DNA from: Diphasiastrum complanatum
Lineage: Eukaryota > Streptophyta > Lycopodiopsida > Lycopodiales > Lycopodiaceae
Length of the DNA stretch: 64,000 bases
NCBI GenBank assembly: GCA_029204225.1
Contig: CM055106.1
Coordinates: forward strand, 186,001 to 250,000
Direction: 5' to 3'
Below the pieces are notes generated by a model. It saw nothing but the letters and a program-made list of their open reading frames with translations. It did not search any database and was not told the DNA's origin. Each line of letters begins with the position of its first letter. Position 1 is the stretch's first letter. This document shows, piece by piece, positions 6,882-42,340 of this stretch. A program made the translations under genes and the position numbers.

Positions 6882-7652
6882 TTGGTATCAGAGCCATCTC
6901 CTTCTATGGGAGCTCAATTTCAGCAGGGGAGAAATCCATCAGAGTGCATAGCAACTATGGTTAATATGCAAAGATAGATAGAGCAGGGTCAGCGCTGGAG
7001 AACCAGCTATCTATGGTGGAAATCTCCGTAGGATTACTTGTTCTTACAGTAAAATTTGGATCAGCTTTCTAAGCCAGGTCCAGCGCTGCCAATCAGGGTT
7101 TAAACTTCGATTTTGGAGTGGAAATTCCGGATTTTGGAGCGTTTTCAAGTCATGAAGTTTGATGCAGACCAGCGCTGTCAGAGCAGCCTCCTTCCTTGAG
7201 TTTTGAGTGGAAATCAATGACAAATTGAGCAAGATTTGAAGCGGATTTCTACAGCAGGTCCAGCGCTGGACAGTAGGGGATAAATTTTAGAATTTATCCT
7301 TGCATTTCAAAGGTTTTCTAGAAGTCTGAGCTTCAGACTTGCTTGTCACAAACCAGCGACCTACCAGCTGAGGTCAAATCAGAGATTCAAGCGGATTTTT
7401 GAGTCTAAATGTGGACAAATTGAGATGTTGTCAGACCAGCGAGGGGGGATAGCAAAAGTTTCAGATCTTGTTGCACATTTTCCAACCTCAAATCAGATTG
7501 AGAAAGAAGATGAGAAGGGCTTTTCTGTATTCTCTCTGTGGAAGTACAGTTCTCAGAAAGAGCTAAGTTTCCTTTCCCTTGTACAGTTGTAAATTAGTCT
7601 TTTAGACTTTTTTTCCTTCAGAAGTTAAGGTAGCTCTCTTTCAGTTTCGAAG

Positions 7653-12389: not shown

Positions 12390-12400
12390 GGGGGAGAGAG

Positions 12401-12758
12401 TGTTACGAGCTCGTAACCAGTGCCGAACCCTAGGGAACACAGATAGGTCAGATACCACAGTCAGGGTCATGTCCAGTGTAAATGACCAACAGGGCAAGAC
12501 AGTGTGAGTAGTGTGCCCCAGCACGGTCCATAGCCATGGCGGGCCTAACACAGCCTAGGGACCCTGTCAGCAGGATAGGGCCCCCAGTTGGGTCCCGACG
12601 TGCAATCGACCACGTCAGTGCCACATGGCCGACACTTGGCAGTTGCATGCTACCAGTCCTCACACTGGGCTAGGAGGGGCTTACTCTATATCAGGGAGTA
12701 GGCAAGGTTGGGTGGATCAGTTAGTGTTTGCCCTACTGTGGTGTTAGGATTTATTACA
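12401..12758 (+). repeat. 3' LTR of chromovirus copy 1
   Basis: 358 bp, preceded by the purine tract at 12388-12400 and ending TTATTACA just before the second ACACT. Confidence 0.93.
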
Positions 12759-13795
12759 ACACTTGAACCTTGAGATGATTCTTTAAGATCCTCTTCATGG
12801 TGCTTCTTCTTGATGGAGATCCGCGACCTCCATGTCTTATAATGATCACAACAATCATGACCATTCAATATGCACTTCGTATGATTATCAAAATTACTTA
12901 TGCTAGAAACATAAGTCCAAAAATCACCACAACTTGGCATGATTTTTCCAATATTGAAATCAAAAGGTATTTCCATCTCAATAAGGCTAACTACTTGCTT
13001 ATGGATATAAGTGTCCACTTTGGATGCTTCACTTATTCTCATAAGAAGTTTACAACTTGCCTTTAAGATTGATAACTTACAATTTTCATCTTTATGAATG
13101 AACACATCATTCATGATCTTATTGAAACCAAAAGATCCTACATTATGAAGATATTTCCATTTCCTTGACTTCATAACTAATGTAAGCTTACAAGGAAAAT
13201 ATATTTTGCTATCTTTTAAGGCATCACACTCAACTAGTATTGCCTTAATCCACCTTTGAGATACAAAAATCTCTTCAAAGCAAAATGGTTCTTCGTAAGT
13301 TGACATGATAGCATAAATGAAACTATTTTCATTTTGAGATTGCCCCTTATTCTTGATTGATTTCTCTTGGATAATAACAATAAGTTTGAACTTATCTAAA
13401 GTTCCAAGCAATCTACTCTCCAAGGACATGAAATAAATCCAAGTGACATCTATCTTTGCATCTTGAACCAAACAATGCACTTCCAAATGAAAAATTTCAA
13501 AAGATTCAACATGTGTTGTGATGGACTCTTGAAGACAAATCTTGCAAGTCCTTGTGAGACTCCAATCCCCATTCGCCTTTCCACAAAGGAAACACCTTTC
13601 CTTGGACTTGTCCTTCTTGTATTTGTATTTTGAACTTGAAGCTCCATCCTTCACCTCGGCCCCCTTGCTTTGGTTCTCCTGGGATGGACTGGTCTTCTTT
13701 TTGTAGCATCTTGAGAAAAAATATCCTCCCTTGCCACAAAGGTTGCACTCAGGATCCTTTCTTTCCTTCAATAGGATGCCACCTATTGATGCCAT

Positions 13796-20400: not shown

Positions 20401-21243
20401 CAGAGGGAAGGCACGAAACCTAACGAGGTCACATATATTAGTGTTCTCTGTGCATGTGCCCATTCTGGCCTAGTAGATCAAGGTCGTTATTTCTTTGATT
20501 CCATGTGTAAAAATCAGGGTGTCACACCAACCAAGGAACACTATGCGTGCATGGTTGATCTTCTAGGGCGTGCAGGGTGCTTGGCCGATGCTGAGCTCTT
20601 TATCAACAAAATGCCAATTCAGCCTGATATTGTGGTTTGGATGACTTTGCTTGGTGCTGCTAGAAACCATGGCCATGCGGAGATAGGAAGACGTGCCTTT
20701 GATCGTGTCGTGCAGTTGGACCCAAAAAATGCTGCACCTTATGTGCTGCTATCAAACATCTATGCAGCTGCTGGTAAGAAGGATGAGTTAGCAAAGATCA
20801 GAAATCAAATGAAGGAGGCAGGTGTCAAAAAAATGCCTGGGTGCAGCTGGATCGAAGTTGATAACCAACTGCATGCCTTTGTTGTAGGTGATGCAACTCA
20901 TCCACAAAGCAAGGAGATTCACGCTGAACTGGATAGATTGGTGGGGTTGATGAAGATGGCAGGGTATAAACCTAATTTAAGCTTTGTGCTGGATGATGTG
21001 GAGGACGAGGAGAAGGAGAATGCTTTGTGTGGACATAGTGAGAAGCAGGCCATTGCTTTTGGGCTCATCAACACGCCTTTTGGGACACCTATTCGCATCA
21101 AAAAGAATCTTCGGGTGTGCGGTGACTGTCACAATGCCACAAAGATCATCTCAAAAATTGTTGGGCGTGACATCAGTGTGATGGATGCAAACAGAAACCA
21201 CCATTTTAAGGATGGCTTCTGTTCCTGTGGAGATTATTGGTGA
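17420..21243 (+). CDS. PDF-motif / PPR-DYW organelle RNA-editing protein
   Basis: Predicted exons are 17420-17843, 17985-18073, 18229-18374 and 18492-21243; each junction has GT-AG and keeps the frame. Exons 2-3 encode WQEFFLDPSQWWDNR, then PDFKHK and a LW…W(L)NP.WV stretch. This is the PDF motif known from plant organellar single-stranded-DNA-binding (OSB) proteins. Exon 1 ends with a second partial copy (EALWINN…NPHWVRARL). PPR repeats of the PLS type follow, including five near-identical units of 101 residues. The C-terminus has E domains (PGCSWIEV) and a DYW cytidine-deaminase domain with HSE (HSEKQAIAFG), CGDC and the final CGDYW. DYW-PPR proteins edit C to U in mitochondrial or plastid transcripts; PPR repeats read the RNA. 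The third intron (117 bp) is a multiple of three without a stop, so it may be retained. The start (MAMAMTT) is uncertain; the first half of the first PDF copy may lie in a missed upstream exon. Confidence 0.85.
17844..17984 (+). other. intron 1 of the PPR-DYW gene
   Basis: The donor CGG|GTATGC and the acceptor CCCTTAG|GGCATG join codon phase 1 and restore the frame leading to WQEFF…WWDNR. 141 bp. Confidence 0.65.
18074..18228 (+). other. intron 2 of the PPR-DYW gene
   Basis: Donor AAG|GTGCGC, acceptor TATGCAG|AAAAGT; joining gives LTK-KSPRHPDFKHK, which completes the PDF motif. 155 bp. Confidence 0.75.
18375..18491 (+). other. intron 3 (or retained in-frame segment) of the PPR-DYW gene
   Basis: Donor CACG|GTATGG, T-rich tract, acceptor CATGCAG|GGTGCC; length 117 bp, no stop in frame. 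If retained, it adds 39 hydrophobic residues (LLFLALSKLTLV…) that fit neither the PDF motif nor PPRs, so splicing is the better reading. Confidence 0.6.
18907..20421 (+). repeat. five tandem 303-bp PPR units
   Basis: Units begin at about 18907, 19210, 19513, 19816 and 20119. Each encodes one P-L-S triplet of 101 residues sharing LLKACASLAALEQGK, MYAKCGCTE and SWNAMIAGYAQNGLGKEAL. They differ from each other at only a few nucleotides, notably at residues that set PPR base preference (for example N/D pairs around QPDN/QPDD/QPNN). The near identity implies recent duplication or gene conversion. Confidence 0.9.
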
Positions 21244-25396: not shown

Positions 25397-25808
25397 AAGG
25401 TTCGCAATGCCGAAGATACAAAGGGAAAACAGCTAGAACGGGCTCCATGAAGCATGCTTCACCACCGAAAATTTCTCTTAAAAAAAAAAAAAGCCCAAAA
25501 AGTATCCAATTACTCATTTTTATTTTTCTTGTTTTTCATGTTAATTCAATTTCTCCTTCTTATTTTTATTTCTATTTATTCTTTCATTTATTTATTTCTA
25601 TTTTATCTATTTGTACAAACGCTTTTTACATTTTCCCCTCTCTCAACTTTGCTTTTGTTGCCAAAATTTGTTTCCTCACTTTTCGTCAACTCTATATTCT
25701 CTCTTGTCTATATCTCATTTTCCCTTCATTTCACACTGGTCTCACATCGCCACGTACGCCCACGCCAAAGACATACGCAGGTGCCAAGGGACCTATCACC
25801 AAAAGCAC

Positions 25809-26510
25809 AGTGGGGGCATGTTAGAAGATTCTAGTGAAGATTCTTCTAATGGATTCCAAATGCCAAAAAGATGCACTGTACTCGTAAGCCAAAGGCGCGA
25901 GAAATAGAATTAGATCTATGCTCCAATGGGCTGAAAATAAGAAAGGACCCAAGTAGTTTTAAATGCATTTTGTCGTATAACTTTTTAAGATAGTTAAGTT
26001 GTTATGGCACATGGTTTTTGGGTGAACCAAAAACCCTAACCCTAGCTTTGTCTATAAGTAGGGATGTGACACCACTTTGTAATCACTTTTCATTTGTAAG
26101 AATAGAGATTGAGAGAGAGGAGAGAAGCCTCCTCCTCCATTTTTCTTACTTTGTGAAGCCCTCCTATTTTGCCATGATTGTAGATGTATTGTTATTTCTT
26201 AATCATGCTATCACACATTAGAATGATCATTAGCTCATGCTTTCATCCATCAATCCACAACATCACAGATTTGCAAAATAGGTGTTAGAAATCCATCTTG
26301 AGAGATCAATAAGATCCATTAGGTAGGTTTACTTCCATTGCTCCTCTCCCTTGAGAAGATAAGCCTCTTGAGGAGAAGATCTAGAGCTCAAAGAGCCTAG
26401 ATAATCCAAGAAAACCAAGATCCAAGAAGATGATCCATTCAAAACCAAAACCCCAAAAAGAGCCAAGAAGATAGTCAAGAACCTCACCTCACATCTAAGC
26501 CATTCCATTA
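25809..26510 (+). mobile_element. putative LTR with preceding polypurine tract
   Basis: AGTGGGGGCA at 25809 is followed by TGTTAGAAG at 25819, the usual boundary between purine tract and 3' LTR. Downstream is a promoter-like CTATAAGTAG (26050) and an R-like stretch ending in GAGAGAGAGG. The 3' end is not certain; the sequence changes character near 26510. A paired 5' LTR was not found. Confidence 0.4.
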
Positions 26511-28204
26511 TCAGATCCTATGCCAAGATTGACACCCTTGGTAGGCTTAGATCCCATTGAGATCCGTAGCTTAACCCCCTCCCCATTGGATCGAATCCCA
26601 CTACTACACGACAACTCACTCGGTTGGAGATCCAAGCCCCTTCTTTGTCCTCTTGATCGCACCGATCAGGGAGGCACGGAGACGTCGGAATCTAGTGTCC
26701 ACGTCAGCAATCCGAAACAACTTATGGCCTCTGACCTTTGACGTCCTTGCTCTCTGACCGACACGGACGTCGGATTCCGACGTGTTTTGAAGCCTTCGGA
26801 TTCCGACGTTTGTGAATCCAAATTCAAAGTGATTGATTTTTTGTTGTGAGCTAGATCTCACATTTTTCTATTTCTTGTTGTCTAGTTTACAAGGAGTCTT
26901 CACATTCATGGCATCTATAGGAGTTTTTTTTCTTAGAAGCTAGTGAGAGACTAGATACCTCCAACTATTCAGTTTGGAAGGATAAAACATAATCTTTGTT
27001 GATTCTTTATGGTGTAATGGACATAATATTAGGAAGTTGAAGCTTGTGATGAGGCTCAAAGGTGCAAGAAGAGATCAAGGATTGCTCTTCATATTATAAA
27101 AATGAACATTTGAGATTTTAAGCACTTTTTCCCTCCAAAATACAGATTGGTGTGTTTTTTTGGGTTTTTTGGCTAGTTGGTTTGGGTTTCAAGCCCTTAG
27201 AGGCTGTTCAGAGCCTCCTCTACCCTCTCACACCTCCTCCGCTAGCTGTAAACAGTCCAAACACAAAAAAATACAGAAAACTACCTCTAAACTCCCAAAA
27301 ATCTACCTAAACTACTCTAAAAAACAAAAAATAAGCTAAAATGCAACTAAACTAGTTAGTGGAAACCTATCCTCGGCAACGGCGCCACTGTAGGGTCAAA
27401 GATCTCGCGTAGTATAGCCCTCCCGCCTGTCAACAAGGGTTAGATCACTGGATAGGTACCTAACTATGCATAGATGCTACTTTTACTTAGTCTCCTACTT
27501 TCTCCCTTAAATCTACTCACCACTAACACTACTCTCCTTTAACTCTACTCCTCTACACTAACATTCATCATGATTTGGGTGAAGGGAAGGGAGAGGTTGA
27601 GAAGAGAAGAGAGGAAGAGAAAGGGATAGAGAGTGAGGATGGAGGTTAGCTCAAATGCTCCTTATGCTTGCTAATGGAAAAGCATTCATGGCAAACAATA
27701 AACATGAAAATAGAAAGCAATGGAAAACACAATCAAGAGCATTAGTAAGTAGTGAATAGCAATTGAGGATGCTTCTCTTTCAAAAAATGGTAGAGTTTCC
27801 TCCTTCTCATTAAGCATGAAAAATAGTGTACAAATGGTGTCTTTTTATAAAATGGGGAAGGCCCTTGCCCCTCAATCCTATTGGCTAATATTCACAATGA
27901 TCCTATCCATTCATCTTGGACCCAACTTGATCCAAGGGTCCACAAAAAGTACATTAGAAATCACAAGATTCATGTGAGTCCCAATTTGGACTCAACTCTA
28001 AAAAGTAATCTCTAAGTTTAAAAATGACATTGGGCCTCTAGTTTTATTTTAATTCCAAGGCCCAAGTCATGTTTATTTTATTTACAACTTTATTTGCGTG
28101 CTCATTGGGCGATGGGCTTATACACGCAGGATGCCATGCCCTCGCAACACATTTTATTGGATGATTTTATTTATTTACACTTTGTTGGGAATAACCCCAA
28201 CAGG
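26511..28204. other. non-coding; fragments of LTR elements
   Basis: No gene. At 26650-26815 the motif CGGATTCCGACG recurs. At 27370-27400 'CTCGGCAACGGCGCCA' resembles the conserved region downstream of LTRs in many plant retrotransposons, so this is probably an old element fragment. 28182-28204 holds a small hairpin (TGTTGGG/CCCAACA) immediately before the Penelope-like element. Confidence 0.45.
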
Positions 28205-28237
28205 CATTAGTCTAAATGGTAGGTGCCTCTCTCCTAG

Positions 28238-28246
28238 TATAAATAG
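28238..28246 (+). promoter_or_regulatory. TATA box of the PLE pseudo-LTR
   Basis: TATAAATAG, 43 bp before the first base of the ribozyme stem I. Transcription starting about 30 bp downstream would place the hammerhead at the extreme 5' end of the RNA. The same box is at 31618-31626, and as TATAAAAAG at 33740. Confidence 0.7.
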
Positions 28247-28280
28247 AGAAGGAGATCTCATTTGTAACTCACACCTTTGA

Positions 28281-28334
28281 GTGCTCCACTGATGAGCTTG
28301 AGAAATCAAGCGAAACTAGTTTGGAGTTAAGCAC
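28281..28334 (+). ncRNA. type I hammerhead ribozyme (PLE copy A, 5')
   Basis: Core CTGATGA (28289-28295) and GAAA (28312-28315). Stem II is GCTTGA/TCAAGC closed by a GAAA tetraloop. Stem I is CTCCA (28284-28288) with TGGAG (28322-28326), extended by GTG/CAC beyond a 5-nt TTAAG-type bulge. Stem III is minimal: ACTAGT is palindromic, so it is stable mainly in a dimer, as described for PLE hammerheads. Predicted cleavage lies between 28321 and 28322, after the H17 position of the GTT triplet. All invariant core bases are present. Confidence 0.88.
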
Positions 28335-28536
28335 TTTTTTGATAAAGAGTTTCATTTCTCACATCTCCTTCTCTATTTCCTTCTTGGTTATCTAAGTTTA
28401 TGGAATGTTTGTGCATCTAAATAACCTTTTAGATACACTTGTGGTTTCACACTATGTATCATTTTCTCTTTTTCTAAGCTCGTTTGTTTTGTGCCAACGA
28501 TAGTCTATTTCTTCTAACCTAAACCCTATCTTTGCC

Positions 28537-29470
28537 ATGGAGACTCAAGTTGGCACAAGCAAGCGACAACATGTAAACGTCGAAGAAAACTATTTTGCAA
28601 CACCAAGCAGCATGTACGGCATCACGCTCCCAACGGAGATCACCGGATTCGCGAAAAAATGCTGTGAAGAATTCAAGAAGCTCCACACAAGTCCTACAAA
28701 AAATCCAAAGCACAGCTGCTGAAGCTTACACAACTCAAGCAAGAAAGTCACATTCCCAATATCCTCAAGATGAGTTCACCAAAGACTCAGATAGCGCATA
28801 TGTGTGCACAAGCTCTTCTGTCTTTTTCTTTGGTAGAGCTTACAGAAGAGTACAGAGCAGCATGCTTCGATGCTTACCTACAAGCTTTCACCATTGTTGT
28901 AGAAGACGAAGAAAAAGGTTTGACCTCTTATTGCGAAAACTTTGAAGGCAAACTTATAGATATTCTTGCACCCTTGGAGGAAGTCACCCTTAGCGACTCC
29001 TTCAAATCCTCAAATCTGACAGCATATTGGAAGGACAGACTCTCTTCCAAGTTTCGGAACCTCAACAACTCCTACAAATGTGCAACACACTAGAAGAACA
29101 CTACTACTAAAGCAGCCTTTGTACAATGCAAAAACGCTTTGGATGCTACGATGCAGGAAGCTGACTCGATTCCTAAGGAGCAAACCATTGTTGAACTCGT
29201 CAAAGCAGAGGTTGCCAAGCAACTTAAACAACAAAAGCTACCGCAACATAGCAAGCCAAAAGCTAGTCTTGCGGGCCAAAAAAGTCAACCGAAGAAAAAC
29301 ATTTAAAAAGTCACATGGCTTTTGAATGCACAACAAGGCAAGATCAAAGAGGTACAAGCAGATCAAAGGGCCAAAACAATGCAAGCGGTTCAAAATGCGC
29401 CAAAAATCGGCAACAGCAGAGGGGAAGGACAACATCCCGCTCTGCTGACCTATTTTCTCTGCAAGAAGAA
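28537..29470 (+). pseudogene. ORF1 of PLE copy A, disrupted
   Basis: Starts with ATG at 28537 (METQVGTSK), ten bases after the pseudo-LTR. The frame shifts near 28715 and continues through KLTQLKQESHIPNILK, then MSSPKTQIAHMCAQ (28770), LVELTEEYRAAC, TAYWKDRL and a Lys/Gln-rich tail, with stops at 29091 and 29304. It resembles no domain I can name. The heptad-like and basic tail composition would fit an RNA-binding or coiled-coil ORF1 (inference). Some Penelope-like elements have a separate first ORF. Confidence 0.55.
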
Positions 29471-29599
29471 GTCGGTCTGCCCATAAGTATGGCTCCAAAA
29501 GTCGTCCTCAATCCGCTCCAAGTCAAAATGTGGAAAAAGCTTATGTTCCTCCTCATCATCGAGACAAGGGCAAAAGCGTTGCAGGTCCCTCTTCTGGCT

Positions 29600-31430
29600 T
29601 CCAATCCTAGACTTTCATCACTATGCCATCTTGCTTTTTGGTAAGAAGTTTCCATTTGAAGTTGATTTTAGAATTACCAGTAAGTCAATTCGCAATCTTT
29701 CTGACCGAATTCTTTTCTACCATGAGCAGAAGCTTTTGAGTCTAGGTCTAAACTTTATTCTTCGACTTATTTGCCAAAATCTTCAATCTATTCTTGCCAA
29801 TTATGAAGAACTTTGTAGATCTTATCATTTGAGACACTTTTTCAAAACTTCCAATGACTCCTTTTCACTTTTTAAAATTCCTAATCGCCAATGGGAACCA
29901 CCCGTGAAGTTTTCTCCTCTTGAAAGTATTTAAGACACTGAAAAACAATTTCTTGAGACTCTTCTATCTAACACCTCCAGTTCTATTAAACCTTCCCTAC
30001 CTAGAAATCTTAGAATTGCCCTTAAGCAATTATCGTCTGATAGCTCTATTGTTATCAAACCTGCAGATAAGAATCTAGGATTGGTAATCCTTAATAGAAC
30101 CTAGTATGTAGATGAATGTCTCTTCCAGCTCTCTCATACAACAATCTATCGATCTGTCCTTGAGATTCCCTGGTCTGAACTTCTTTCCAGAATCCAGTTT
30201 GCTTGCTCCAAGTTTTTACATATCTTATCTGAAGAAGAGTACAAATACATCCTTCACGTACCTCCCAATGGTTTTAGAGCTTGTATCTTTAACCTTCTTC
30301 CCAAGATTCATAAACCCACCCTTGTAGGAAGACCTATATGCTCCTACAATGGTTATATCTTTGAGCACGCTTCTATCTGACTACATCATCAACTCCTTCA
30401 TGTTCTTCTTAAGCAACCGCAACATCTTATAGATTCTCTTTCTCTTATTAAAGAAGTCTCTGAGTTTACTCTCCCACCTAATGTCATTCTTTTCACCTTC
30501 AACGTGGAATCCTTGTATCCCAGTATTCCTACCAAAGAGGGCTTGCACGCACTGCAAATCATGATCAGTAGAGAGGATTTCTCAATCAAAAGAATCAATC
30601 TTATCATGACTTTGGCCACTATCGTGCTAAACCACCATTATTTGGATTTCGATGGAAAATTTTGGCAACAAGTACAGGGGTACAACTACGGGAAGTAATT
30701 TTGCTACAGTTTATGCATGTCTTTTCCTATGTCATATGGAACAGTTACAGGAAAAAGTTTTTCCTTTTCAGGAGTTGATTTATTACAGAAGATATATCGA
30801 TGATGCTTTTGGTTTATGGAATGGTACTAATGATAGTCTCCATAGCATTCTAAGTTTGTACAACTTTTGTTATGAAGACGAAATTAAAATCACTTCTTCC
30901 ATTTCCAACAAAGAAGCAGATATCTTGGATATCCATTTTTTCAAGGATGATAATCTCGCCACCTCTGGCAAACTCTCCTCTAGGTGTTTTCAAAAGGCCT
31001 TAAACAGATATCAATATCTATCTTGGTCTTCTGGGCATCCACGACACCAAAACGAAGCTTTCATCACAGGAGAAATGCGTTGATACATTATCAGAAAAAG
31101 CCTCTGAAGATCAAATTCTACAATCGTCTTCGAGCTCGCGGTTATCCATTAAAAATGATCAAAAAATGCTTCAACAAAGTTTCCTACAGACAACGACTAG
31201 CTCTTCTCAACACTCCTAGACAACGGAGTATAAGGAAAAGGGCCCCTCTAGTTATTAAGTTTGATTATTCCAGTTATAGTTGAGGTTCAAATTTGGGGGT
31301 CACCCTAAACCCTAAACTCCAACAGCTATGCCAACAAGTCCCGGAGCTACAAGATATGCCAAAACCTCTTGTTAGTTGGAAAAATCCAAGAAATCTGAAA
31401 TATTTTATGGTAAAATCAAGGTTGAAGCCT
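29600..31430 (+). pseudogene. reverse transcriptase of PLE copy A, disrupted
   Basis: Readable segments are 29631-29933, 30004-30103, 30112-30698 (with stops and a frameshift), 30690-31083 and 31090-31283. Motif A reads FTFNVESLYPSIP, where other Penelope-like RTs have Asp at the fourth position, so a catalytic Asp is lost (GAC to AAC). Motif C YIDD is intact. A one-base frameshift near 30690 splits motif B, and about 21 bp are missing near 31088 relative to copy D. The C-terminal region HPRHQ.EAF..GEM and FYNRLRARGYPLK is conserved in copy D. The ORF ends soon after the thumb without GIY-YIG. Confidence 0.8.
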
Positions 31431-31584
31431 ATTGGTTGATTGCGACGTCATTTAGGCATAGCACCGTTGTGCATTTATTTTGTCACATGGTCATTTATTA
31501 CCAATTTATGGTGATTTGGTCTCTTTCATCACTTGGTCTTTATCAACCAAATTTCGGCGGGGCCAAGTGGCATGAACCAAATGA

Positions 31585-31909
31585 CATTAGTCTAAATGGT
31601 AGGTGCCTCTCTCTTAGTATAAATAGAGAAGGAGGTCTCATTTGTAACTCACACCTTTGAGTGCTCCACTGATGAGCTTAAGAACTCAAGCGAAACTAGT
31701 TTGGAGTTAAGCACTTTTTTGATAAAGAGTTTCATTTCTCACATCTTTTTCTCTATTTACTTCTTAGTTCTCTAAGTTTATGGAATGTGTGTGCACCTAA
31801 ATAACCTTTTAGATACACTCGTGGTTTAACATTATGTACCGTTCTCTCTTTTTCTAAGCTCGTTTGTTTTGTGCCAACACTAGCCTATTTCTTCTACCCT
31901 AAACCCTAA
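31585..31909 (+). repeat. 3' pseudo-LTR of PLE copy A with telomere-repeat end
   Basis: It begins CATTAGTCTAAATGG and ends CTTCTACCCTAAACCCTAAG. The last 13 bases (31897-31909) are nearly two CCCTAAA units. Confidence 0.83.
31661..31714 (+). ncRNA. type I hammerhead ribozyme (PLE copy A, 3')
   Basis: Core CTGATGA (31669-31675) and GAAA (31692-31695) are intact, and stem I CTCCA/TGGAG and palindromic ACTAGT stem III are unchanged. Stem II is GCTTAAG/CTCAAGC with one mismatch in place of the 5' copy's perfect helix. Probably still foldable. Confidence 0.82.
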
Positions 31910-32019
31910 GCCCCCCCAGAGGTTTAGAGCCATTACGCATGTAATTCTGATACGTTTTGAGCAAGTTATGAAAGTTCAGGACCAAAAATCGGGTCTCTAG
32001 CTTAATTTTTTGAAATTTT

Positions 32020-32393
32020 TAGCGCCACTGGTACAACGACTATTAGCACCAATTTTCGTTCTTGGAAAGTGGGGCCTTGTCATCAGCGTGCCACATAAGC
32101 AATCCCAGTCTCGCTCACTTGGAGTATTTATGAGACAAACAACCTTTGTAAAACTCACTCTTTATGGTGTTCCACTAATGAGCTTGAGCGATCAAGCGAA
32201 ACTAGTTTGGAATTAAACACCTCTTCTAATAGAGATTTAGTTTCTCACATTATCTGTCTCTTCTCCATCTTTCATATCGTTCTTGTCTTGAATGCTTCAG
32301 TTCTTTATCTTTTTTAGATAGAATCATGCATTCTCTATTTATAAGAAACCTTTATCTCTTTTGCTTTATGTCACTGCTAGCCTTGTTCCGCTA
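32020..32393 (+). mobile_element. divergent PLE pseudo-LTR, copy B (5'-truncated)
   Basis: From about 32090 the sequence parallels the pseudo-LTR layout: stem-loop ribozyme remnant, TTTAGTTTCTCACATTATC, a TTTTTTAGATAGA block, TGCTTTATGTCACTGCTAGCC, then telomere repeats. It is too different to be copy A's family member, so a second PLE family is present. The left border is approximate. Confidence 0.6.
32165..32222 (+). ncRNA. decayed hammerhead ribozyme (PLE copy B)
   Basis: Stem I TTCCA/TGGAA covaries with CTCCA/TGGAG of copy A. The outer GGTG/CACC helix is longer. Stem II GCTTGA/TCAAGC is closed by GCGA, another GNRA loop. The first core segment is CTAATGA instead of CTGATGA (G5 to A), which should block cleavage. 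Covariation supports a selected RNA structure in the ancestor. Confidence 0.75.
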
Positions 32394-32475
32394 CCCTAAA
32401 CCCTAAACCCTATAAATTCTAAACCCTAAACCCTATAAATTCTAAACCCTAAACTGTAAATCCTAAACCCTAAAT
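32394..32475. repeat. interstitial telomere repeats (CCCTAAA)n, degenerate
   Basis: Perfect CCCTAAACCCTAAACCCT at 32394-32411, then further CCCTAAA units interrupted twice by TATAAATTCTAAA, giving a higher-order repeat of about 23 bp. Fades to CTGTAAATCCTAAACCCTAAATCG. This lies directly after copy B and before copy C. Confidence 0.9.
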
Positions 32476-32479
32476 CGTG

Positions 32480-32885
32480 AGGACAACGGCGTATAAGGAA
32501 AAGGGCCCCTCTAGTTATTAAGCTTGATTATTCCAATTATAGTCGAGCTTTGAATTTGGGGGCCACTCTAAACCCTAAACTCCAACGGCTATGCCAACAA
32601 GTCCCGGAGCTACAGGATATGCCAAAACCTCTTGTCAGTTGGAAAAATTCGAGAAATTTGAAATATTTCTTGGTAAAATCAAGGTTGAAGCCTATTGGTT
32701 GATTGTGACGTCATTTAGACATAGCATGGTTGTGCATTTATTTTGTCACATAGTCATTTATTACCAATTTATGGTGATTTGGTCTCTTTCGTCACTTGGT
32801 CATTACTTGCCAAATCTCGGTGGGGCCAAGTGGCATGAACCAAATGATATTAGTCTAAATGGTAGGTGCCTCTCTCTTAGTATAT
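32480..32885 (+). mobile_element. PLE copy C, 5'- and 3'-truncated
   Basis: Starts abruptly within the RT C-terminus (ACAACGGCGTATAAGGAAAAGG, equal to 33343 in copy D). It then runs through the 3' untranslated region and stops inside the pseudo-LTR just after CTCTCTCTTAGTATA, where copy D begins. It lacks the ribozyme. The join to copy D is at the TATA box (TAGTATA/TATCAC). Confidence 0.75.
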
Positions 32886-33520
32886 ATCACAAAAGATATA
32901 TCGATGATGCTTTTGGTTTATGGAATGGCACTAATGATAGTCTCCATAGCTTTTTTAGTTTGTACAACTTTTGTTATGAAGACAAAATTAAAATCACTTC
33001 TTCCATTTCCAACAAAGAAGCACATATCTTGGATATCCATTTTTTCAAGGATGATAATTTCGCCACCTCTGCCAAACTCTCCTCTAGGTGTTTTCAAAAG
33101 GCCTTAAACAAATATCAATATCTACCTTGGTCTTCTTGGCATCCACGACACCAAATGGAAGCTTTCATCATAGGAGAAATGCATCGATACACTATCAGAG
33201 AAAGAACCAAAAAGGGTTTTGAAGACTTGAAGATCATATTCTACAATCGTCTTCGAGCTCGCGGTTATCCATTAAAAATTATCAGAAAATGCTTCAACAA
33301 AGTTTCCTACAAACAACTACTAGCTCTTCTCAACACTCCTAGACAACGGAGTATAAGGAAAAGGGCCCCTCTAGTTATTAAGCTTGATTATTCCAGTTAT
33401 AGTCGAGCTTTAAATTTGGGGGCCACCCTAAACCCTAAACTCCAACGGCTATGCCAACAAAAGCGGAGCTACAAGATATGCCAAAACCTCTTCTCAATTG
33501 GAAAAATCCGAGAAATCTGA
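32591..33520 (+). pseudogene. chimeric ORF across PLE copies C and D
   Basis: This 309-codon open frame crosses the copy C/copy D junction at 32885. The first about 98 codons are non-coding 3' sequence of copy C. From YHKRYIDDAF onwards (32886) it is the real RT frame of copy D, from motif C to the thumb (FYNRLRARGYPLK, LNTPRQRSIRKRAPLVIK). The RT part is open for over 600 bp, longer than in copy A. No intact fingers or motif A are included, so it cannot be active. Confidence 0.7.
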
Positions 33521-34016
33521 AATATTTCTTGGTAAAATCAAGGTTGAAGCCTATTGGTTGATTGCGACGTCATTTAGACATAACACCGTTGTGCATTTAT
33601 TTTGCCACATGGTCATTTATTACCAATCTATCGTGATTTGGTCTCTTTCGTTGCTTGGTTAATACTGGCCGAATTTCGGCGGGGCCAAGTGGTATGAACC
33701 AAATGACATTAGTCTAAATGGTAGGTGCCTCTCTCTTAGTATAAAAAGAGAAGGAGATCTCATTTGTAACTCACACCTTTGAGTGCTCCACTAATGCGCT
33801 TGAGAAATCAAGCGAAACTAGTTTAAAGTTAAGCACTTTTTGATAAAGAGTTTCATTTCTCACATCTCCTCCTCTATTTCCTTCTTGGTTATCTAAGTTT
33901 ATGGAATGTTTGTGCATCTAAATAACCTTTTAGATACATTCATGGTTTCACACTACATATCATTCTCTCATTTTCTGAGCTCATTTGTTTTGTGCATCGC
34001 TAGCCTATTTCTTCCA
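32886..34016 (+). mobile_element. PLE copy D, 5'-truncated at RT motif C
   Basis: Contains RT from YIDD to the C-terminus, then the 3' region and a pseudo-LTR (from about 33708), and ends CTTCCACCCTAAA. 5' truncation with an intact 3' end is typical of target-primed reverse transcription. The 3' end is followed by telomere repeats (34017-34048). Confidence 0.83.
33783..33836 (+). ncRNA. decayed hammerhead ribozyme (PLE copy D)
   Basis: Stem II GCTTGA/TCAAGC with GAAA loop and the ACTAGT palindrome remain. The core is CTAATGC instead of CTGATGA, and stem I is broken (CTCCA against TAAAG). Inactive. Confidence 0.75.
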
Positions 34017-34048
34017 CCCTAAACCCTAAACCCTAAACCCTAAACCCT
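34017..34048. repeat. interstitial telomere repeat (CCCTAAA)4.6
   Basis: Four perfect CCCTAAA units plus CCCT. On the left is the 3' end of PLE copy D, on the right the interior of a gypsy coding region. On the plus strand the C-rich repeats lie to the left of the gypsy break, as telomerase or end healing would produce. Confidence 0.95.
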
Positions 34049-35619
34049 TTCCAAGTTACTAGATACTCTTGAAGGAGACAATTCCGCAATCGTCGCTCCC
34101 TTCGATCTAGGATTCTGTCTGGCCCATAACTTGTGGTGTCTTTCTCCTCCAGAGACACTAGACCTTCCACCAGGCTATTGCCATCATGCAAACATCTCTT
34201 CAATTTGCTAACATGGAATACTGGATGCACCTTGCATCCTACAGGTAGCTGTAGCTTATAAGCTACTTGGCTCACCTTCTTAATAATCAACCATGGTCCA
34301 CAATACCTACGAGATAACTTGGCGCACTTTCCTGTGCGTAGTCCCTTCGACTTCGAAGAGACTAGTAAATACACCCGATCTCCATTCTCAAATTTTTGAT
34401 AGGTACGGTTCTCACGAGCATAACTCTTTGCCCTAGCTACAGCTTTGGACAAGCTATCTCGTGCCAAAACTCTACAGCACTAGGTACCCTATGCGAAATC
34501 CCTATGATTGTAGGACTCAGTGGCCTGAAACCATAATTGAGTTCAAATGGACTCAATCCAGTGGACGCATGTCTCTTATCATTGTACGCGAACTCCAATA
34601 GCGGTAAATGCTTTACCTAGTCTGTTTGCGTACTACTCACATATGCCCTAAGCATATCTTCCAAGATCTGATTCACTCGCTCTATCCAACCATCCGTCTG
34701 AGGATGCTCAGAGCTACTCATCCGCAACTGTGTTCCAGCTTGGCGAACACCTCAATCTAGAAATTTCCCGTAAACTTGGGATCCCTATCAGAAACTATGG
34801 ATTTCGAAAGACCATGTAACCTGACAGTATTCTGAATAAACAACTCAGCCACTTGCGGAACTGTGACCTTCTTGGTCGTTGTGATGAAATGAGCCATCTT
34901 GGAAAACCTGTCTACCGCTACCATAACAGAATTGAATTCATTCTTGGTCCTGGGTAGCCCAACAATAAAATCCATAGAGATGCTTTCCTCTGAGGACTTA
35001 CTCTCCCGGCCTTGTTCACCTGACAAGCCGTGCAACGCTGGACGTACTCTCTTACATCTCGCTGCAATCGTGGCCAGAAATAATGCCTTCTCAAAAGCTC
35101 ACTGGTCTTATCAATACCAGGGTGCCTTGCGCAGGGACTATCATGGCATTCATGAAGTATCTTACGACGAAGATTTTTCACATCTAACACGAAAACTCTT
35201 CCATTTCTCAATAACATACCATCCTTCACGGTGTATGTTAAATATGTACTGGTGTGTGTCTTGTCTGTTTGGTCGACTACCTTGCGCACATTAGGCCACA
35301 CACGCTAATTGAGCCTTCTTAATCTCCTCCATGAGACCACTGTCAACCACAGTAAGGCTCATCTGATGCAGTATACGAGATAGTGCATCAACGACCACAT
35401 TTTTCTTTTCTCTTTGGAAGCGAATTTCCAAATGAAATTCCTACATCAGCTCGGCCCACCAAGCTTGGTGGCCCTTCAAATCTGGCTAAGTGCAAAAATA
35501 CCTTAAAGTATGATGATCTGTATACACATAAAACTCGGCGCCATATAAATAATGTCTCTACATCTTGAGCTCATGTATAATCGCATACAGCTCTTGCTCG
35601 TGTGTAGGATATCTGTGTT
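34049..35619 (-). pseudogene. broken chromovirus 3: RNase H, integrase and chromodomain part
   Basis: On the minus strand, in order from 35619: RNase H end (THEQELYAII…), integrase zinc finger (HECHDSPCARHPGIDK…CTACQVNKAG), integrase core ([28 protein letters not shown]), a C-terminal domain with RRYCGPWLIIKK and HPVFHVSKLK, and the beginning of a chromodomain (EYLVTWKGF) cut at 34049 by telomere repeats. Several stops and frameshifts occur. It belongs with 41785-44276; a copia element sits between the two parts. Because it lacks its 3' end, it is a truncated, immobile copy. Confidence 0.85.
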
Positions 35620-36380
35620 CTTGATCTATCAATCTACTTGAGATTAAGATCAATCTAGATCAATTCTAGACACAAAATCCTAACAAGAACAATCATTAAT
35701 TGAAGGTAGGTGTACTTTCTGGTTTCCCACATGTGAAACCCTATCTGAGTATGGACTCCAACCTGAAAATCAAGTACACATTGATAGCACCTCAAAACAA
35801 TCAAAACGAATGTAGACAAATGGAGAGAATCACTCAAAATTGCTTCCAAAACCAAGATTGGTGTCTCACAATGATTATGGCCAAATGTGGCTCTATATAT
35901 ACAATAAGTCGGAGCTCGTGGTACTGATCATCCCTTTGATCCCACATGTGTGAAGGTGCTTTGTCATATGATGATTCATCATGCAAAACTGACACTTGGA
36001 CAAAACCTTCTATTTTGAGCACTTTTGGTCCATTTTCCTTCTATATGGAGATCTACTTGAAAATCTTCTAGAAGTCAAAATTCGTCTACTTCAGCTTATT
36101 CAACACATGTGAGCTGTCCTCTACACATGGGATGTGACACCTAACCAAAGGATGTGACTCATGCAATCAATAGATTGATGCAATGTGTCATATGTCTAGA
36201 AAACTAGTTTTTGGCCTTTTTAGCCACTAGAACTTGAATTAAATCATATGTACAGACTATATGATTATGGTACATGACAAGTACACTATTTTCACACGTG
36301 GGAACAGACTCCACACATGTGTAATCATCCTATATACAAGATTTTTGGCCTCTACCAAGCTTATTTTTGCATTTTTCACA
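35620..36380 (-). repeat. 3' LTR of the copia element, outer 72 bp missing
   Basis: Homologous to 41024-41784. It begins abruptly at CTTGATCTATC following RNase H sequence of chromovirus 3. Confidence 0.85.
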
Positions 36381-36392
36381 CTCCTCAAAAAT

Positions 36393-37276
36393 CTAGCTTG
36401 GTAAATCTAGCATAGATCTATCTATAACTCCAAGAGCCAATCTTAATTTTATAAATGCATCTTTAGGCAATGCCTTGGTGAGTATATCAGCAATGCAATC
36501 TGATGATGAAACATGAATAAGCTTGATCTCCTTTGCTTGCACTTTCTCCCTCACGAAATGATGTGCAATTTCGATGTGCTTTGTTCGAGCATGGAAGACT
36601 GGATTGTTTGCAAGTTGTTGAGCTGCTTGATTATCACAATATATGCATGGAATGTCTTCATCCTTGATCACATGTAGCTCCTCCAAAATCCTTTTAAGCC
36701 AAAAAACCTCCTTTGTTGTTGTTGTCATAGCTTTATATTCGGATTCTATTGATGAAAGAGAGATGGTATCTTGCTTTTTGGAAAGCCAAGATATAACTCC
36801 TCCACATAAGAATGTAGCAAATGCACTTATGGATCTTCTATCCATCTTGTCACCTGCAAAACTTGAGTCCGAATATGCTCTCAAACAAATATTAGTCCTT
36901 TCATAAACTATGCCAAAGTCTTTTGTAGCTGAGATGTACCTTAACACCCTTTTTGCTCCTTTCCAATGACACATTAATGGACTTTGCATGTATTGACTCA
37001 ACTTGCCAACACAAAAACTAAGATCTGGTCTAGTGATAGTTAAGTATATCAAGGAACCAATAAGCATTCTATAGGTAGTGATGTCCTCAAAGGATGCTTC
37101 ATCACTTTCCTTAGAACCTTTTACACTTAGTTCCATAGGAGTTTCAACTCCTTTACAATCAATCATGCCAAATCTTGCTAAGATTGATCTAGCATACTTA
37201 GATTGACATATGAAGGTAAAATCATTACTTCTAGTGACTTCTATTCCAAGTATAACTTTAAGAATTCCTAGATCTA
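36393..37276 (-). pseudogene. copia RNase H region, separated by a stop
   Basis: After the stop at 37277 the frame resumes with LGIEVTRSND and KYARSILARFG, then MIDCKGVETPM, LIYLTITRPDLSFCVGKLSQ and RNase H residues (LRAYSDSSFAGD, SSIESEYKAM, YCDNQAA, RTKHIEIAHHFVREK). The ADILTK motif near the end matches plant copia RNase H. The coding capacity is otherwise complete up to the 3' LTR. Confidence 0.85.
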
Positions 37277-39478
37277 CTATCTTAAATTACTAGACAAGGA
37301 AACTTTTACATTCTTAATGCCATCTAGATCATTTCCTGTGAGTATAATGCCATCAACATATAAAACTAAGATAATGATCTTTCCATCATTACATTTGTAG
37401 TACAATGATGGTTCATAAGAACTTACAACAAATCCAATGGAAATAAGATAGGAATGCAACCTAGAGTACCATGCTCTTGGTGCTTGCTTGAGTCCATAAA
37501 GACTCTTCTTCAAGAGACACACCTTGTCTTCTTCTCCATCTTTGATGAAGCCCTCGGGTTGGCACATGTAGATTTCCTCTTCCAAGAATCCATTTAAGAA
37601 AGCATTTGTCACATCAAATTGGAAGAGCTCCCATTTAAAAGAAGTTGCAAGACATATGATTAATCTAATGGTCACAAGCTTTGCAACAGGTGCAAAGGTT
37701 TCATCATAATCTATGCCTTTGACTTGCAAAAAACCTTTCGCTACAAGTCTAGCTTTGTACTTATGAATGGAACCATCTTGATTATATTTCAATCTATATA
37801 TCCATTTACAAGTAAGAGGCTTCTTTCCATAAGGTAAATCAACAAGTTTCCAAGTTTGATTTTCCATTAATGCATCAAACTCTACTTGCATAGCTTTCCT
37901 CCAATATTGAGACTTATTTGCTTCCTCAAAACTAGTTGCTTCTTCAAGCATAGTAGTCAAGAAAGTATAAGAGTTGAGTAGTTGAGAATCTTCCCTTTGC
38001 TCCCCTTTGTCACTATAAGTGAGTCTTGATGGCTCAATCCTTGTCCTTGTTGATCTTCTTGGCACCCTTGGACTTGGAGTAGGTTCCACTTGGTCTTCAT
38101 CTTCATGAAGCTCCTCCTCGGCCATAGCATGATCATTGACAAGTTGAGTGTTGTTGGAAGTCACCTTTCCTTTGGCTTGGAGAGATTCATCAAAAAGTAC
38201 ATCTCTACTAGCAACAAGTTTTTTTGTAATAGGATCATATATCCTATAGGCTTTCTTACTTTCACTATAACCAACAAAGATGCCTTTGAAAGAATTGGCA
38301 TCTTCCTTTTTTCTTGTTTCTAAAGGAATATGTACATAACAAGTACATCCAAAAACTTTCAAATCACTAAGATTTGGCTTTTTGCCAAACAATACTTCAT
38401 AAGGTGTAAGTCCTTCAATGGCACTATTAGTCATTCTATTACAAAGAAAATTTGCACATAAAATAGCTTCTCCCCAAAATGAAATAGAAAGAGATGCATC
38501 TAATCTCATAGCTTTAGCACACTCACATAGTGTCCTATTCTTTCTCTCAGCTACTCCATTTTGTTGTGGAGTATATGTACAAGTAAATTCTCTCTTTATG
38601 CCATTAGTTTCACAAAACTCTTTCATCCTATTGGAGATGTACTCCCCTCCATTATCACTTCTTAATACTTTCAAGCTAGTATTAAGTTGCTTTTCCACAA
38701 GAGTTTTGAACTTTACAAAGGACTCAAAAACTTCACTTTTCTTAGACAAGAGATAAACCCAAGAGTATCTTGATCTATCATCAATAAAAGTGACATACAT
38801 TAGAGCTCCACCATTTGATTCATGTGAAAATGAATGAACATCTGAGTGTATAAGGCTAAGAGGAGAGTTAGATTTTATCAAAGATCTCTTGAAAGGAAGC
38901 TTATGAGATTTGGAGAGTCCACAAGCTTCACAAAGCTGGCCACACTTGGATATGGTTTTGGGAAGTCCTCTTGCTAGCTCTTTTGTCACCATGGTCTCCA
39001 TAGCTTTGTAGTTAGGATGGCCTAACCTTTTGTGCCATAATTCCACTTGAGTAAGCTCCTCCCTTGCCATGTTCACACTTCCAACCATCACATTAGCATC
39101 CAATTTGAATAACCTCCCTTGCTTGAAACCACTAGAAATACATTTTTCATCTTTCAAGATAGAACATGCTCCATGCTTGAAATGTACATCTAATCCACTA
39201 TCCATAAGTTGTCCTACACTCAACAAGTTCTTTGTAATTGAAGGTACATAAAGAACATTGTCTAGATCTACTTTTTTAGATGATCCTAGACATAAAGGAA
39301 TGGATCCAACACCTACAATCTCACATTCTTGATCACTTGCAGTGAAGATAAATCTCTTAGAACTATTGTAAGAAAGTAGATTAGAAAAGTAGTCTTTTTG
39401 GTGAGTCATGTGAGAGCTTGCCCCACTATCAATCCACCAAGTGTCTTGATTAGATGTTTGTGGTGAGGATACCATCAA
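37277..39478 (-). pseudogene. copia pol: protease, integrase, reverse transcriptase
   Basis: Protease WWIDSGASSHMT; gag-pre-integrase with LWHKRLGHPNYKAM; integrase core with LIHSDVHSFS, LRSDNGGEYISN and PQQNGVAERKNRT; copia-type C-terminus with RRSTRTRIEPSRL; RT with TCKWIYRLKYNQDG, KARLVAKGF, ETFAPVAKLVTIR and FDVTNAFLNGFL. The RT active site reads YVDGIILTGND where YVDD is expected, so a catalytic Asp is lost. The frame stops at 37277. The start overlaps the end of gag by a few bases in another frame. No other disruptions are seen over 733 codons. Confidence 0.9.
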
Positions 39479-40349
39479 AGATAGATTGCCTCTTCCTCCT
39501 CCTCAAGCACAAGATTGCCTTGATTGTCCTTCTCTTGGGCATTCTTCTTCTTGTAGCACTCGGATGCAAAATGTCCTTTTTTTCCACAAAAGAAACACTT
39601 TAGCTTCTTCTTGTCCTTCTTGCTCTTGCCTTTGGAACTTGACGCTCCATCTTTGTTCTCCATCTCCATGTCTTGAGTCTTCTTGGATGGAAACTTCTTC
39701 TTCTTGCATTTCAAAGAAAAGTTAGCTTTTTCATCACCATCATTCAAAGATAAGGAACTCATCCTACTTTTGATATGAAGCATACTACTCTCCTCACTAA
39801 CAAGCACACTTTGTAGTTTTTCAATACTAGGAAGTGAATCTTGAATAGAAAAGGTTTGAACAAGATTGGAATAATCACCTCCTAATTCATTCAAAATGAT
39901 TTGAACTAATTCATCATCTTTGATTTTATCATCTATAGAAGACAACTCTTTATTCAAAGATTTGATCCTAAAGACATAATTTTGGGCACTTTCACTACTT
40001 CCTTTCATGCTTTGAAGGATTTGATTCCTAAGCATGAGTATCCTTGAAGTGTTCTTGGATCCATAAATGGCTTTTAATGAATCCCATGCCTCTTTGGATG
40101 TGGTACAAGATGAAATTTCTTTCAAAAGTTCATTACTTACATTCATTTTTATGCAGTGTAATGCAACTCTACATCTCTTTTTGTACTTAGCCAATTCAAC
40201 TCCTCCTTGAGGTTCTACTTCCACCTCAAGTACTATGTCATAAAGATCATGAAGTACAAGCAAAGACTCCATTCGAACTATCCAAGTAGCATAATTAGTG
40301 GATGTAAGTCTTTCACTAGCTTCAAGCAAAACCCACCCACTGATGCCAT
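39475..40349 (-). CDS. copia gag protein
   Basis: The ATG at 40349 gives MASVGG, then a one-base indel leads to LLEASERLTSTNYATWIVRMES, the start of the UBN2-type gag domain (YKKRCRVALHCIKMNVSN, AWDSLKAIYGSKNTSR, YVFRIKSLNKELSSI, SIEKLQSVLVSEESSM). A Lys-rich stretch precedes a canonical knuckle CFFCGKKGHFASECYKKK. About 284 residues. The non-autonomous element's ORF starts with the same MASxGG/LLEAS and keeps the Lys-rich plus CxxC part but lacks the main gag domain. Gag forms the particle that packages the RNA. Confidence 0.85.
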
Positions 40350-40951
40350 TTTTGAATGTGAAAAAGCACTAGAAACTCTTATGGTTTCTCTAAGAGATCT
40401 GAACCTAAAGTCTTCTAGCAATTTAGAAAGCTTATAGACTCAATCCTATCACTCATGAACCAATCTAGAATGATGGAAATTTAGATTCTAGTCTCAACCT
40501 TGCAAAATCACTCCTTAATCTATGATTTTTAGCAATTTCTCTCTTCAACTTCAACATACAATAAAAAAATCAGAGTAGATCAATTAATGCACCTCATTCA
40601 AGCTTCAATTTTAATATTTTGGCTGATCTAATCCAAAAACTAATCAAGGGATTAGACTCTCTATAGAAAATGCTTGATTTTGCACAAAAAATCACTCAAA
40701 TTGGGTATGTGAGTCAAATTCTACAAATTTTTGAAATTTCTCAATCAAAACCGGAGCTGTACGGCCTCACACGTGTGAAAAGAGTTCCTACAACCCACAA
40801 CAAGATCTGGACCAAAAATTTTAAGAATAGCTATCAAATCCAACTCGCTACACAAAATTTGACTAGTTTCCAAAAAACTGCTAATTTTGGCTTTGATTTG
40901 AATTAACCCTATCAATTTCAACAAAACCTCTTGTACTAGGCTCTGATACCA

Positions 40952-41784
40952 TGTGGAAAAAGTACAAAAAGGACCAAGAGTGGATCCTAATCTGATCCTC
41001 AAGAGGGATTGGTTATCAGATTACTTGATCTATCAATCTACTTGAGATTAAGATCAATCTAGATCAATTCTAGATACAAAATCCTAACAAGAACAATCAT
41101 CAATTGAAGGTAGGTGTACTTTCTGGTTTCCCACGTGTGAAACCCTGTCTGAGTACGGACTCCAACCTGAAAATCAAGTACACATTGATAGCACCTCAAA
41201 ACAATCAAAACAAATGTAGACAAATGGAGAGAATCACTCAAAATTGCTTCCAAAACCAAGATTGGTGTCTCACAATGATTATGGCCAAATGTGGCTCTAT
41301 ATATACAATAAGTCGGAGCTCGTGGTACTGATCATCCCTTTGATCCCACATGTGTGAAGGTGCTTTGTCATATGATGATTCATCATGCAAAACTGACACT
41401 TGGACAAAACCTTCTATTTTGAGCACTTTTGGTCCATTTTCCTTCTATATGGAGATCTACTTGAAAATCTTCTAGAAGTCAAAATTCGTCTACTTCAGCT
41501 TATTCAACACATGTGAGCTGTCCTCTACACATGGGATGTGACACCTAACCAAAGGATGTGACTCATGCAATCAATAGATTGATGTCATGTGTCATATGTC
41601 TAGAAAACTAGTTTTTGGCCTTTTTAGCCACTAGAACTTGAATTAAATCATATGTACAACCTATATGATTATGGTACATGACAAGTACACTATTTTCACA
41701 CGTGGGAACAGACTCCACACATGTGTAATCATCATATATACAAGATTTTTGGCCTCTACCAAGCTTATTTTTGCATTTTTCACA
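40952..41784 (-). repeat. 5' LTR of the copia element
   Basis: 833 bp, TGTGG…TTCACA, with the complement of TGGTATCAGAGCC immediately to its left. Contains CACGTGTGAAAC and CACACGTGGG palindromic motifs as in the other copies. Confidence 0.92.
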
Positions 41785-42340
41785 CTTCTTACTCTCAAAG
41801 GTTACTGGTCTACCCTCTTGGCTCAACACTGCACCTACGGCAATGCCACTTGCATCCGTCTCTAGGTCAAAAGGTTTCTAGGTATTCACAATCTTGAGGA
41901 CTGGAGTCGTGGCCACAGACTCCTTCAAGTTCTCAAAACGTTGTTAAGCTTCAGCATCCCATCGAACCACAGTGTTGTTTTTCCTTAATTGGTTCGTTAA
42001 AGGAGCAGCTATCTAGGAATAATTCCTAACAAACCGTAGGTAGAACTTACAAAAGCCTAAGAAAGACTATAATTGGCGTATATCGGCAGGCCTCGGCCAC
42101 TTCTTAACCACAACCACCTTGGCTGGGTCAACCGAAATACCCTCAGCTGTCACTACGTGACCCAAATACTCAACACGAGTCTTACACAACTCTATCTTCT
42201 GAGCATTGGCATACAAGACAGAAGCTTGTAACTTGCCCAAAACGGTGTTGAGATGAATCTCATGCTCCTCAACTGCTTTACTAAAAACCAATATATCGTC
42301 AATAAAATTGACGATAGCCTGATTAGACTTCAACAACTTG
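41785..42340 (-). pseudogene. chromovirus 3: RT and start of RNase H
   Basis: Minus strand, reading NFIDDILVFSKAVEEHEIHL, ELCKTRVEYLGHVVTAEGISVDPAK, then TDASGIAVGAVLSQEGRPVTFESKK. Stops interrupt it. The N-terminal half of RT, protease and most of gag are missing: the frame joins directly to gag-derived sequence at about 42345, so an internal deletion occurred. The copia insertion at 41784 separates it from its own RNase H and integrase. Confidence 0.85.

Follow-up and report, generated by a model that had tools for sequence, protein, structure and literature searches.

A head-to-tail chain of endonuclease-deficient Penelope-like elements with CCCTAAA-type 3' ends in Diphasiastrum complanatum

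Our analysis concerns a 64,000-nucleotide (nt) stretch of the Diphasiastrum complanatum genome (the window, C15:186001-250000 of a 1.74-Gb assembly), in which positions 28205-34048 form a head-to-tail chain of truncated Penelope-like elements (PLEs), with units A to D all on the plus strand. The elements of this chain are endonuclease-deficient PLEs (EN(-)PLEs), with a Penelope-type reverse transcriptase (RT) allied to telomerase and no GIY-YIG endonuclease (EN) after the thumb. We consider it probable, at roughly 0.86, that the chain is an old and inactive one whose elements primed on telomeric or broken chromosome ends through their CCCTAAA tails. This reading is based on the anatomy of the chain, the missing endonuclease, the telomeric 3' ends of two families, the stacking of mixed families, an enrichment near scaffold ends and the telomerase-like predicted fold of a relative.

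Chain anatomy and telomeric 3' ends

The preliminary description of this DNA had recognized four copies, A to D, lying head to tail in one orientation. The arrangement and the common orientation stand, but the units are not equals. A, the sole near full-length unit (~3.7 kb), comprises a pseudo-long terminal repeat (pLTR), open reading frame 1 (ORF1), the RT, a 3' untranslated region (3'UTR) and a second pLTR, and shares its family with fragments C and D, while B is the 3' fragment of a second family whose body is 70-72% alike. C starts in the thumb (~32482), stops within its pLTR (~32887) and is fused to D, which starts at YIDD. Copies of the pLTR lie on the plus strand at 28205-28527, 31585-31907 and 33707-34027, together with a diverged partial copy (32145-32271) and a cut one (32849-32887). 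The B type of 3' end recurs at seven further loci with 91-93% identity, and wherever a longer body is present at these loci it is again 70-72% like that of A. Since B lies between A and C and belongs to another family, a simple tandem duplication is ruled out as the origin of the chain. Comparison of A with D gave a pN/pS of 0.95 on 15 differences, which indicates dead copies.

As had been described earlier, the 3' ends at 31897, 32394 and 34017 continue into CCCTAAA repeats, and the 3' end of A reads CCCTAAACCCTAAG. CCCTAAA heptamers in the window lie exclusively on the plus strand (16 of 16, none on the minus strand), 15 of them within 31303-34044 and one at 54797. The sequence CCCTAAACCCTAAA occurs six times in the 64 kb against 0.00 in shuffles; four of these sites are the ends of B and D, and the other two (31303 and 33426) were rejected as true element ends because both are coding (TLNPKL). 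The 5' pLTR of A also closes with a telomere-like motif (28520), which had previously been overlooked.

At least 36 pLTR matches are present in the assembly, and all of those listed were fetched except C5025:20265. Rather than running into unrelated sequence, an outcome that would have spoken against the preliminary description, all 23 complete 3' ends examined (two families, including four ends in the window) enter CCCTAAA-type repeats in the C-rich orientation, and the second family, that of B, displays the same behavior. The near-identical C13 duplicates of L016 (L017 and L018) were dropped from these ends and from the breakpoints considered below; also dropped from the 23 were two ends whose pLTR matches are 13 nt short (L015 2144107, followed by non-telomeric DNA, and L020 78662584). 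Five of the 23 ends pass directly into an ORF1 leader with about one unit, so the motif is part of the element's own sequence between pLTR and ORF1; the remaining 18 carry two or more units, some of them degenerate. It is very unlikely that the 3' CCCTAAA is a fixed part of the element without relation to the insertion site; the motif is indeed also encoded at the 5' pLTR, upstream of ORF1, but copies vary in their repeat variants and in the number of units, from two to long arrays, and a fixed part does not account for the enrichment near scaffold ends.

This enrichment was measured on 14 merged regions, with matches on the small unplaced contigs C5025 and C3923 omitted from the end-distance count. 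Eight of them are no more than 0.5 Mb from a scaffold end (against an expected 1.6%; P 1e-11) and 11 no more than 2.5 Mb (P 3e-10); no control repeat was compared. On C21, units less than 8 kb from the scaffold start are repeatedly separated by CCCTAAA arrays. C13 has three PLE stacks whose match identities are equal (L016, L017 and L018 at 57.29, 57.37 and 57.46 Mb); they appear to be a subtelomeric segmental duplication.

Reverse transcriptase, relatives and hammerhead

The RT motifs KPADKNLGL (~30057), YIDD and RGYPLK were all confirmed in the window, in agreement with the Penelope type proposed earlier. The RT of A is interrupted by frame changes and stops. A, C and D share one KPIG-TGA stop (31437, 32700 and 33559, respectively), beyond which neither GIY-YIG nor any other Pfam domain was detected in the two frames scanned; the previously claimed coding region without GIY-YIG is thus borne out. 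Full-length relatives from Cryptomeria and Selaginella stop at the same place. The C-terminus of full-length relatives such as P0001-P0008 extends 97-106 amino acids (aa) past RGYP, and the closest relative aligns over 99% of the 608-aa RT read-through. Precomputed annotation places GIY-YIG in 11 of the 120 listed relatives, the first at rank 72 and none among the 71 closest. Some models among these 71 are partial, and P0043, whose terminus resembles an unannotated endonuclease, sits in the endonuclease-bearing (EN+) clade without a GIY-YIG annotation. Therefore, the query's own 29-row clade, in which no row has a PF01541 annotation, is the sounder basis for the absence. By annotation, no intact family member encoding GIY-YIG after the thumb, which would have contradicted the preliminary description, was found in that clade.

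In a 90-row tree, from which P0039, P0040, P0047, P0051, most ranks above 80 and rows shorter than 430 aa were omitted, the 11 annotated EN+ rows all fall into one clade apart from that of the query. A 37-row tree built with 36 hand-chosen proteins of the 120, including 7 of the 11 annotated EN+, placed the query RT on the same branch as a Selaginella protein (support 100/99). The smaller tree omits P0043, P0069, P0074, P0088 and P0092, which fall without annotation into the EN+ clade of the 90-row tree, and its clean EN+ clade is consequently due in part to choice. The fold predicted for the relative P0001 had telomerase as its best match among 997 chains aligned, and EN(-)PLEs and telomerase share a common ancestry.

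Pfam searches returned nothing relevant for the broken pieces and the RT read-through, and for the relatives only RVT_1, plus GIY-YIG for P0072; family assignment therefore rests on the relatives. A phmmer search against the PDB gave only spurious repeat proteins and scans of IMG/VR gave no relative. In a lenient comparison, one ORF1 piece matched the N-terminus of the Ginkgo protein P0024 at 35% across 43 aa, alongside one hit that is probably spurious. Two other identities were considered and rejected. A GIY-YIG Penelope of the Dryad group is ruled out by the lack of an endonuclease and the position outside the EN+ clade, and a retrozyme, which is non-coding and mobilised by others, is ruled out by the ORF1 and RT remains kept in A.

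The pLTR contains a hammerhead ribozyme that is backed by covariation. Both repeats of A, 5' and 3', have an intact core, B and D a mutated one, and the palindromic AAACTAGTTT of stem III suggests action as a dimer. Rfam gave no match at the 16-kb scale; on a short stretch HH9 scored 21.2 bits, under the cut-off of 52. Across the window and the loci fetched, a loose pattern recovered 26 sites, 22 of which retain CTGATGAG and the CGAAAC core; those with an altered core are window B, window D and two in L020. Covariation was evaluated on nine of the 26 sites, which represent four sequence types with the mutated ones left out. Among these chosen sites, both partners change in 5 of 10 pairs, and pairing holds in 94% of cells; the covariation score was reached by 0 of 500 shuffles and the number of further pair types by 24 of 500. 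A longer outer stem folds well in A, and a conserved outer stem around the hammerhead was rejected since its covariation was not significant. Other hammerhead types share the stacks, for example on C21 between CCCTAAA arrays. A third element type, whose hammerhead is CTGATGAGCTCTCACGAGCGAAAC (L022:2329-2391 on the minus strand; L024:6167-6229 and 6705-6767 on the plus strand), contains a long CT microsatellite, and long CCCTAAA arrays come after its 3' end. Copies of family B have a fourth hammerhead type, CTGATGAGCTCTTGACTCAAGGGCGAAAC, on their 3' side (L022:523-590, L023:2059-2126 and L028:1655-1722, all on the minus strand); these three loci look like duplicates with a common downstream junction.

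Priming on exposed ends and an internal coding motif

From these observations we infer priming, order of addition, promoter sharing and ribozyme activity as follows. The element RNA would end in the CCCTAAA repeats encoded at the close of each pLTR. The most likely pairing partners of this tail would be the 3' overhang of a telomere (TTTAGGG) and broken DNA ends that finish in GGG or GGGTTT. The telomerase-like RT would then extend the paired DNA end; an endonuclease would be unnecessary because an existing end is extended. Synthesis would usually halt early and leave a 5' truncation, after which the new outer end would gain telomere repeats or the next element, and the stack would grow head to tail with its 3' ends toward the interior. 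As each 3' repeat holds a TATA box and a hammerhead, a stacked unit could supply the promoter and the processed 5' end of its downstream neighbor. At TGGAAAGGG the array of D meets a gypsy chromodomain, a junction that would be expected had a broken end in GGG acted as primer. Published models describe EN-deficient PLEs that prime on exposed ends (telomeres and breaks) and gain telomere repeats at the truncated 5' end (PMC3846280), as well as Terminons, in which G-rich overhangs are paired by C-rich repeats that the RNA carries at its 3' end (PMC12477314). The anatomy of the chain fits both.

Several observations weigh against exposed-end priming. Regarding location, 3 of the 14 regions lie deep inside chromosomes (C2, C8 and C4:52.8 Mb), and the window chain itself is not terminal, having 214 kb of other DNA on its left. 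Near ends, 12 of 16 copies turn their 3' end inward (9 of 13 with duplicates merged), which is a trend only. Of ten scaffold ends sampled, seven are without a telomere array, two are all N and only C21 has arrays, ~5 kb in behind N's, so that end distances depend on the scaffolding. The remaining half of the gypsy target was looked for left of A within the window and was not found. Regarding the repeats, one or two units at the start are encoded by the element, and the pLTR used as query already had ACCT, the opening bases of the motif, at its end; short repeats alone are therefore no proof of targeting. In 3 of the 18 longer ends (L010 171021, L013 and L016 57290331) the repeat is partly the internal motif of the next fragment; away from the matched pieces, L010 also has a single run of repeats in the opposite orientation. 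Counting the shared junction of L022, L023 and L028 once reduces the telomeric ends to 21 of 21. In addition, the core pattern was not matched in five of the pLTR copies that contain the ribozyme region.

Some of these points would also agree with a chain made in one event at an internal double-strand break, where the RT copies D, jumps to the RNA tail of B and then to A, and the far end is joined to the opposite side of the break without any telomere. The chain does lie inside a chromosome arm, the array of D joins gypsy coding sequence at GGG and the A-B joint has only two repeats, probably encoded. We nevertheless regard such template jumping as rather unlikely, because the 82 bp of degenerate repeats after B exceed the encoded motif, the regions cluster near scaffold ends and the C21 arrays recur between units so close to a scaffold start.

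The RT thumb-coding sequence of both families holds an in-frame CCCTAAACCCTAAA, whose perfect two-unit repeat CTAAACCCTAAA encodes the LNPK of TLNPKL, and the motif is intact in three second-family loci (L023, L026 and L027). Of 25 internal 5' starts, taken as BLAST match starts excluding body position 1 and locus edges, 13 lie within 10 nt of the beginning of the motif (body position 2768-2777). A cluster of this kind has a probability of 5e-20 when a 10-nt window is applied to the last kilobase, and of 3e-16 when the window is 20 nt; some second-family breakpoints may be alignment breaks in diverged sequence, and positions are uncertain by up to ~15 nt where telomere repeats lie upstream. 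Nine of the 13 starts have telomere repeats or a pLTR end upstream; in one of these nine, L019 7742, this is unique DNA carrying about one repeat unit. Three others follow element sequence, and the last follows unique DNA. LNP is present at the motif position in 8 of the 23 relatives with a long enough tail, including Selaginella and some conifers.

The internal motif may act as a telomere seed or a template-switch site. Our tentative proposal is that the in-frame CTAAACCCTAAA doubles as a DNA seed or fallback cap, in that an exposed TTTAGGGTTTAGGG could be used by telomerase or by the CCCTAAA tail of the next element when synthesis stops or the end erodes, which would yield recurrent 5' ends and short modules with telomere motifs on both sides. 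Recombination between CCCTAAA stretches with deletion, instead of priming or healing, is possible to a similar degree; it suits the nine fragments with telomere repeats or a pLTR end directly upstream, but not the three with motif-free element sequence there (L010 2380|2771, L014 2624|2770 and L025 1861|2768) or the one with unique DNA (L019, 888). Descent of the fragments from a single ancestor, as one non-autonomous mini-element family, seems quite improbable. Seven family A fragments do start at the motif and extend to body position 2985 or beyond, but a single origin appeared in 0% of 200 bootstrap trees (15 family A fragments; weak branches, with scatter not above chance), and second-family fragments share the same start point. 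If the seed proposal is true, the LNP of some conifer and Selaginella relatives would derive in part from telomere DNA, surviving as a relic within the protein. We did not meet a coding telomere motif as recurrent breakpoint in the portions of the literature consulted, in a search not aimed at that exact question, and it may be new.

Table 1 Features of the chain and its flanks in the window
Feature	Position	Strand	Basis
Left flank of chain, near-palindrome TGTTGGGAATAACCCCAACA, LTR-end-like; 5' side of A ends here	28183..28202	.	sequence
5' pLTR of A: TATA box (28238), hammerhead, tail, telomere-like end	28205..28527	+	93% identical to repeats at 31585 and 33707; TATAAATA
Hammerhead, intact core, palindromic AAACTAGTTT stem III (dimer type)	28281..28334	+	pattern, fold, covariation over nine chosen copies
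Telomere-like motif encoded between pLTR and ORF1	28520..28532	+	pLTR-repeat-leader-ATG layout also at four other loci
ORF1 of A, gag-like, broken	28537..29610	+	reading frames; Ginkgo P0024 match in lenient test
ORF2 of A: PLE RT, broken, ends KPIG-TGA, no GIY-YIG	29589..31439	+	
Internal coding telomere-like motif CCCTAAACCCTAAA (LNPK), RT thumb of A; recurrent breakpoint in fetched copies	31303..31316	+	
3'UTR of A	31440..31584	+	
3' pLTR of A with hammerhead (31661-31714), ends in two CCCTAAA-type units	31585..31909	+	
Fragment B, second PLE family 3' end, mutated hammerhead (32167-32220)	31910..32392	+	
Degenerate telomere array after B, 82 bp, 23-bp higher period	32393..32474	+	
Fragment C: 5'-truncated in thumb, ends at TATA region of own pLTR, fused to D	32482..32887	+	
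Fragment D: YIDD to 3' pLTR, mutated hammerhead (33783-33836)	32888..34015	+	
Internal coding telomere-like motif in D	33426..33439	+	
(CCCTAAA)4.7 array after D	34016..34048	+	
Likely target: Ty3/gypsy integrase C-terminus and chromodomain, cut at ...TGGAAAGGG against array of D	34049..34479	-	Pfam SH3_Tf2-1, weak Chromo match; junction sequence

Around the chain, a second copy of 25500-28204 was not found in the window. A copia element with LTRs 97.8% identical (35607-41789, minus strand) is apparently nested in the gypsy element that the chain abuts, and gypsy stretches at 7502-12759 and 50153-55457 are 97% alike in opposite orientation. An open 1017-aa PPR-DYW frame at 18190-21243 (plus strand) contains about five 303-bp tandem modules with 93% matches, which look like a recent internal amplification of PPR triplets.

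Comparison with known systems

The preliminary description had suggested that a telomere-linked EN(-)PLE of a plant could be new. Novelty of this kind is not borne out, as EN(-)PLEs are described for Selaginella moellendorffii, Pinus taeda and Picea abies (PMC9033089) and telomere association for those of Selaginella (PMC12477314). Hammerheads are reported as general in PLEs (PMC6155905), and telomeric repeats are embedded in Athena (PMC10088271), so embedded telomere repeats are not new as such. The present elements resemble the plant EN(-)PLEs in sharing an RT branch with a Selaginella protein, in lacking GIY-YIG and in the telomere association published for Selaginella (PMC12477314). By description, they differ in having two stacked families across the assembly and the telomere motif both at the two pLTR ends and inside the RT gene.

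Athena and the Terminons likewise combine an EN-deficient RT, a hammerhead, C-rich 3' repeats and chains at chromosome ends (PMC12477314, PMC3846280); unlike in those elements as described, the hammerhead here lies ~200 nt upstream of the repeats, A spans ~3.7 kb and not tens of kb, and the repeats are of the plant type. Plant retrozymes share the hammerhead in direct terminal repeats (PMC6155905), but are short and non-coding with type III hammerheads, whereas an RT is encoded here and the hammerhead is of the minimal PLE type. Dryad and other GIY-YIG Penelopes have the PLE RT core and pLTRs in common with these elements, yet they encode GIY-YIG, and the annotated EN+ rows form a separate clade.

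The HeT-A type telomeric retrotransposons of Drosophila form head-to-tail stacks on chromosome ends and possibly obtain their promoter from a neighbor. The likeness to our chain is one of outline, in the stacking and the possible neighbor promoter, while the RT class is unrelated and telomerase-type repeats are kept here. The literature consulted names plant EN(-)PLEs for few species, and this assembly adds two families with many copies. Two stacked families with telomere repeats between them make the exposed-end priming model testable in a plant. The recurrent breakpoint at the telomere-like motif in the RT gene hints that a single sequence may serve both to encode protein and to seed chromosome ends, an idea that lends itself to direct tests.

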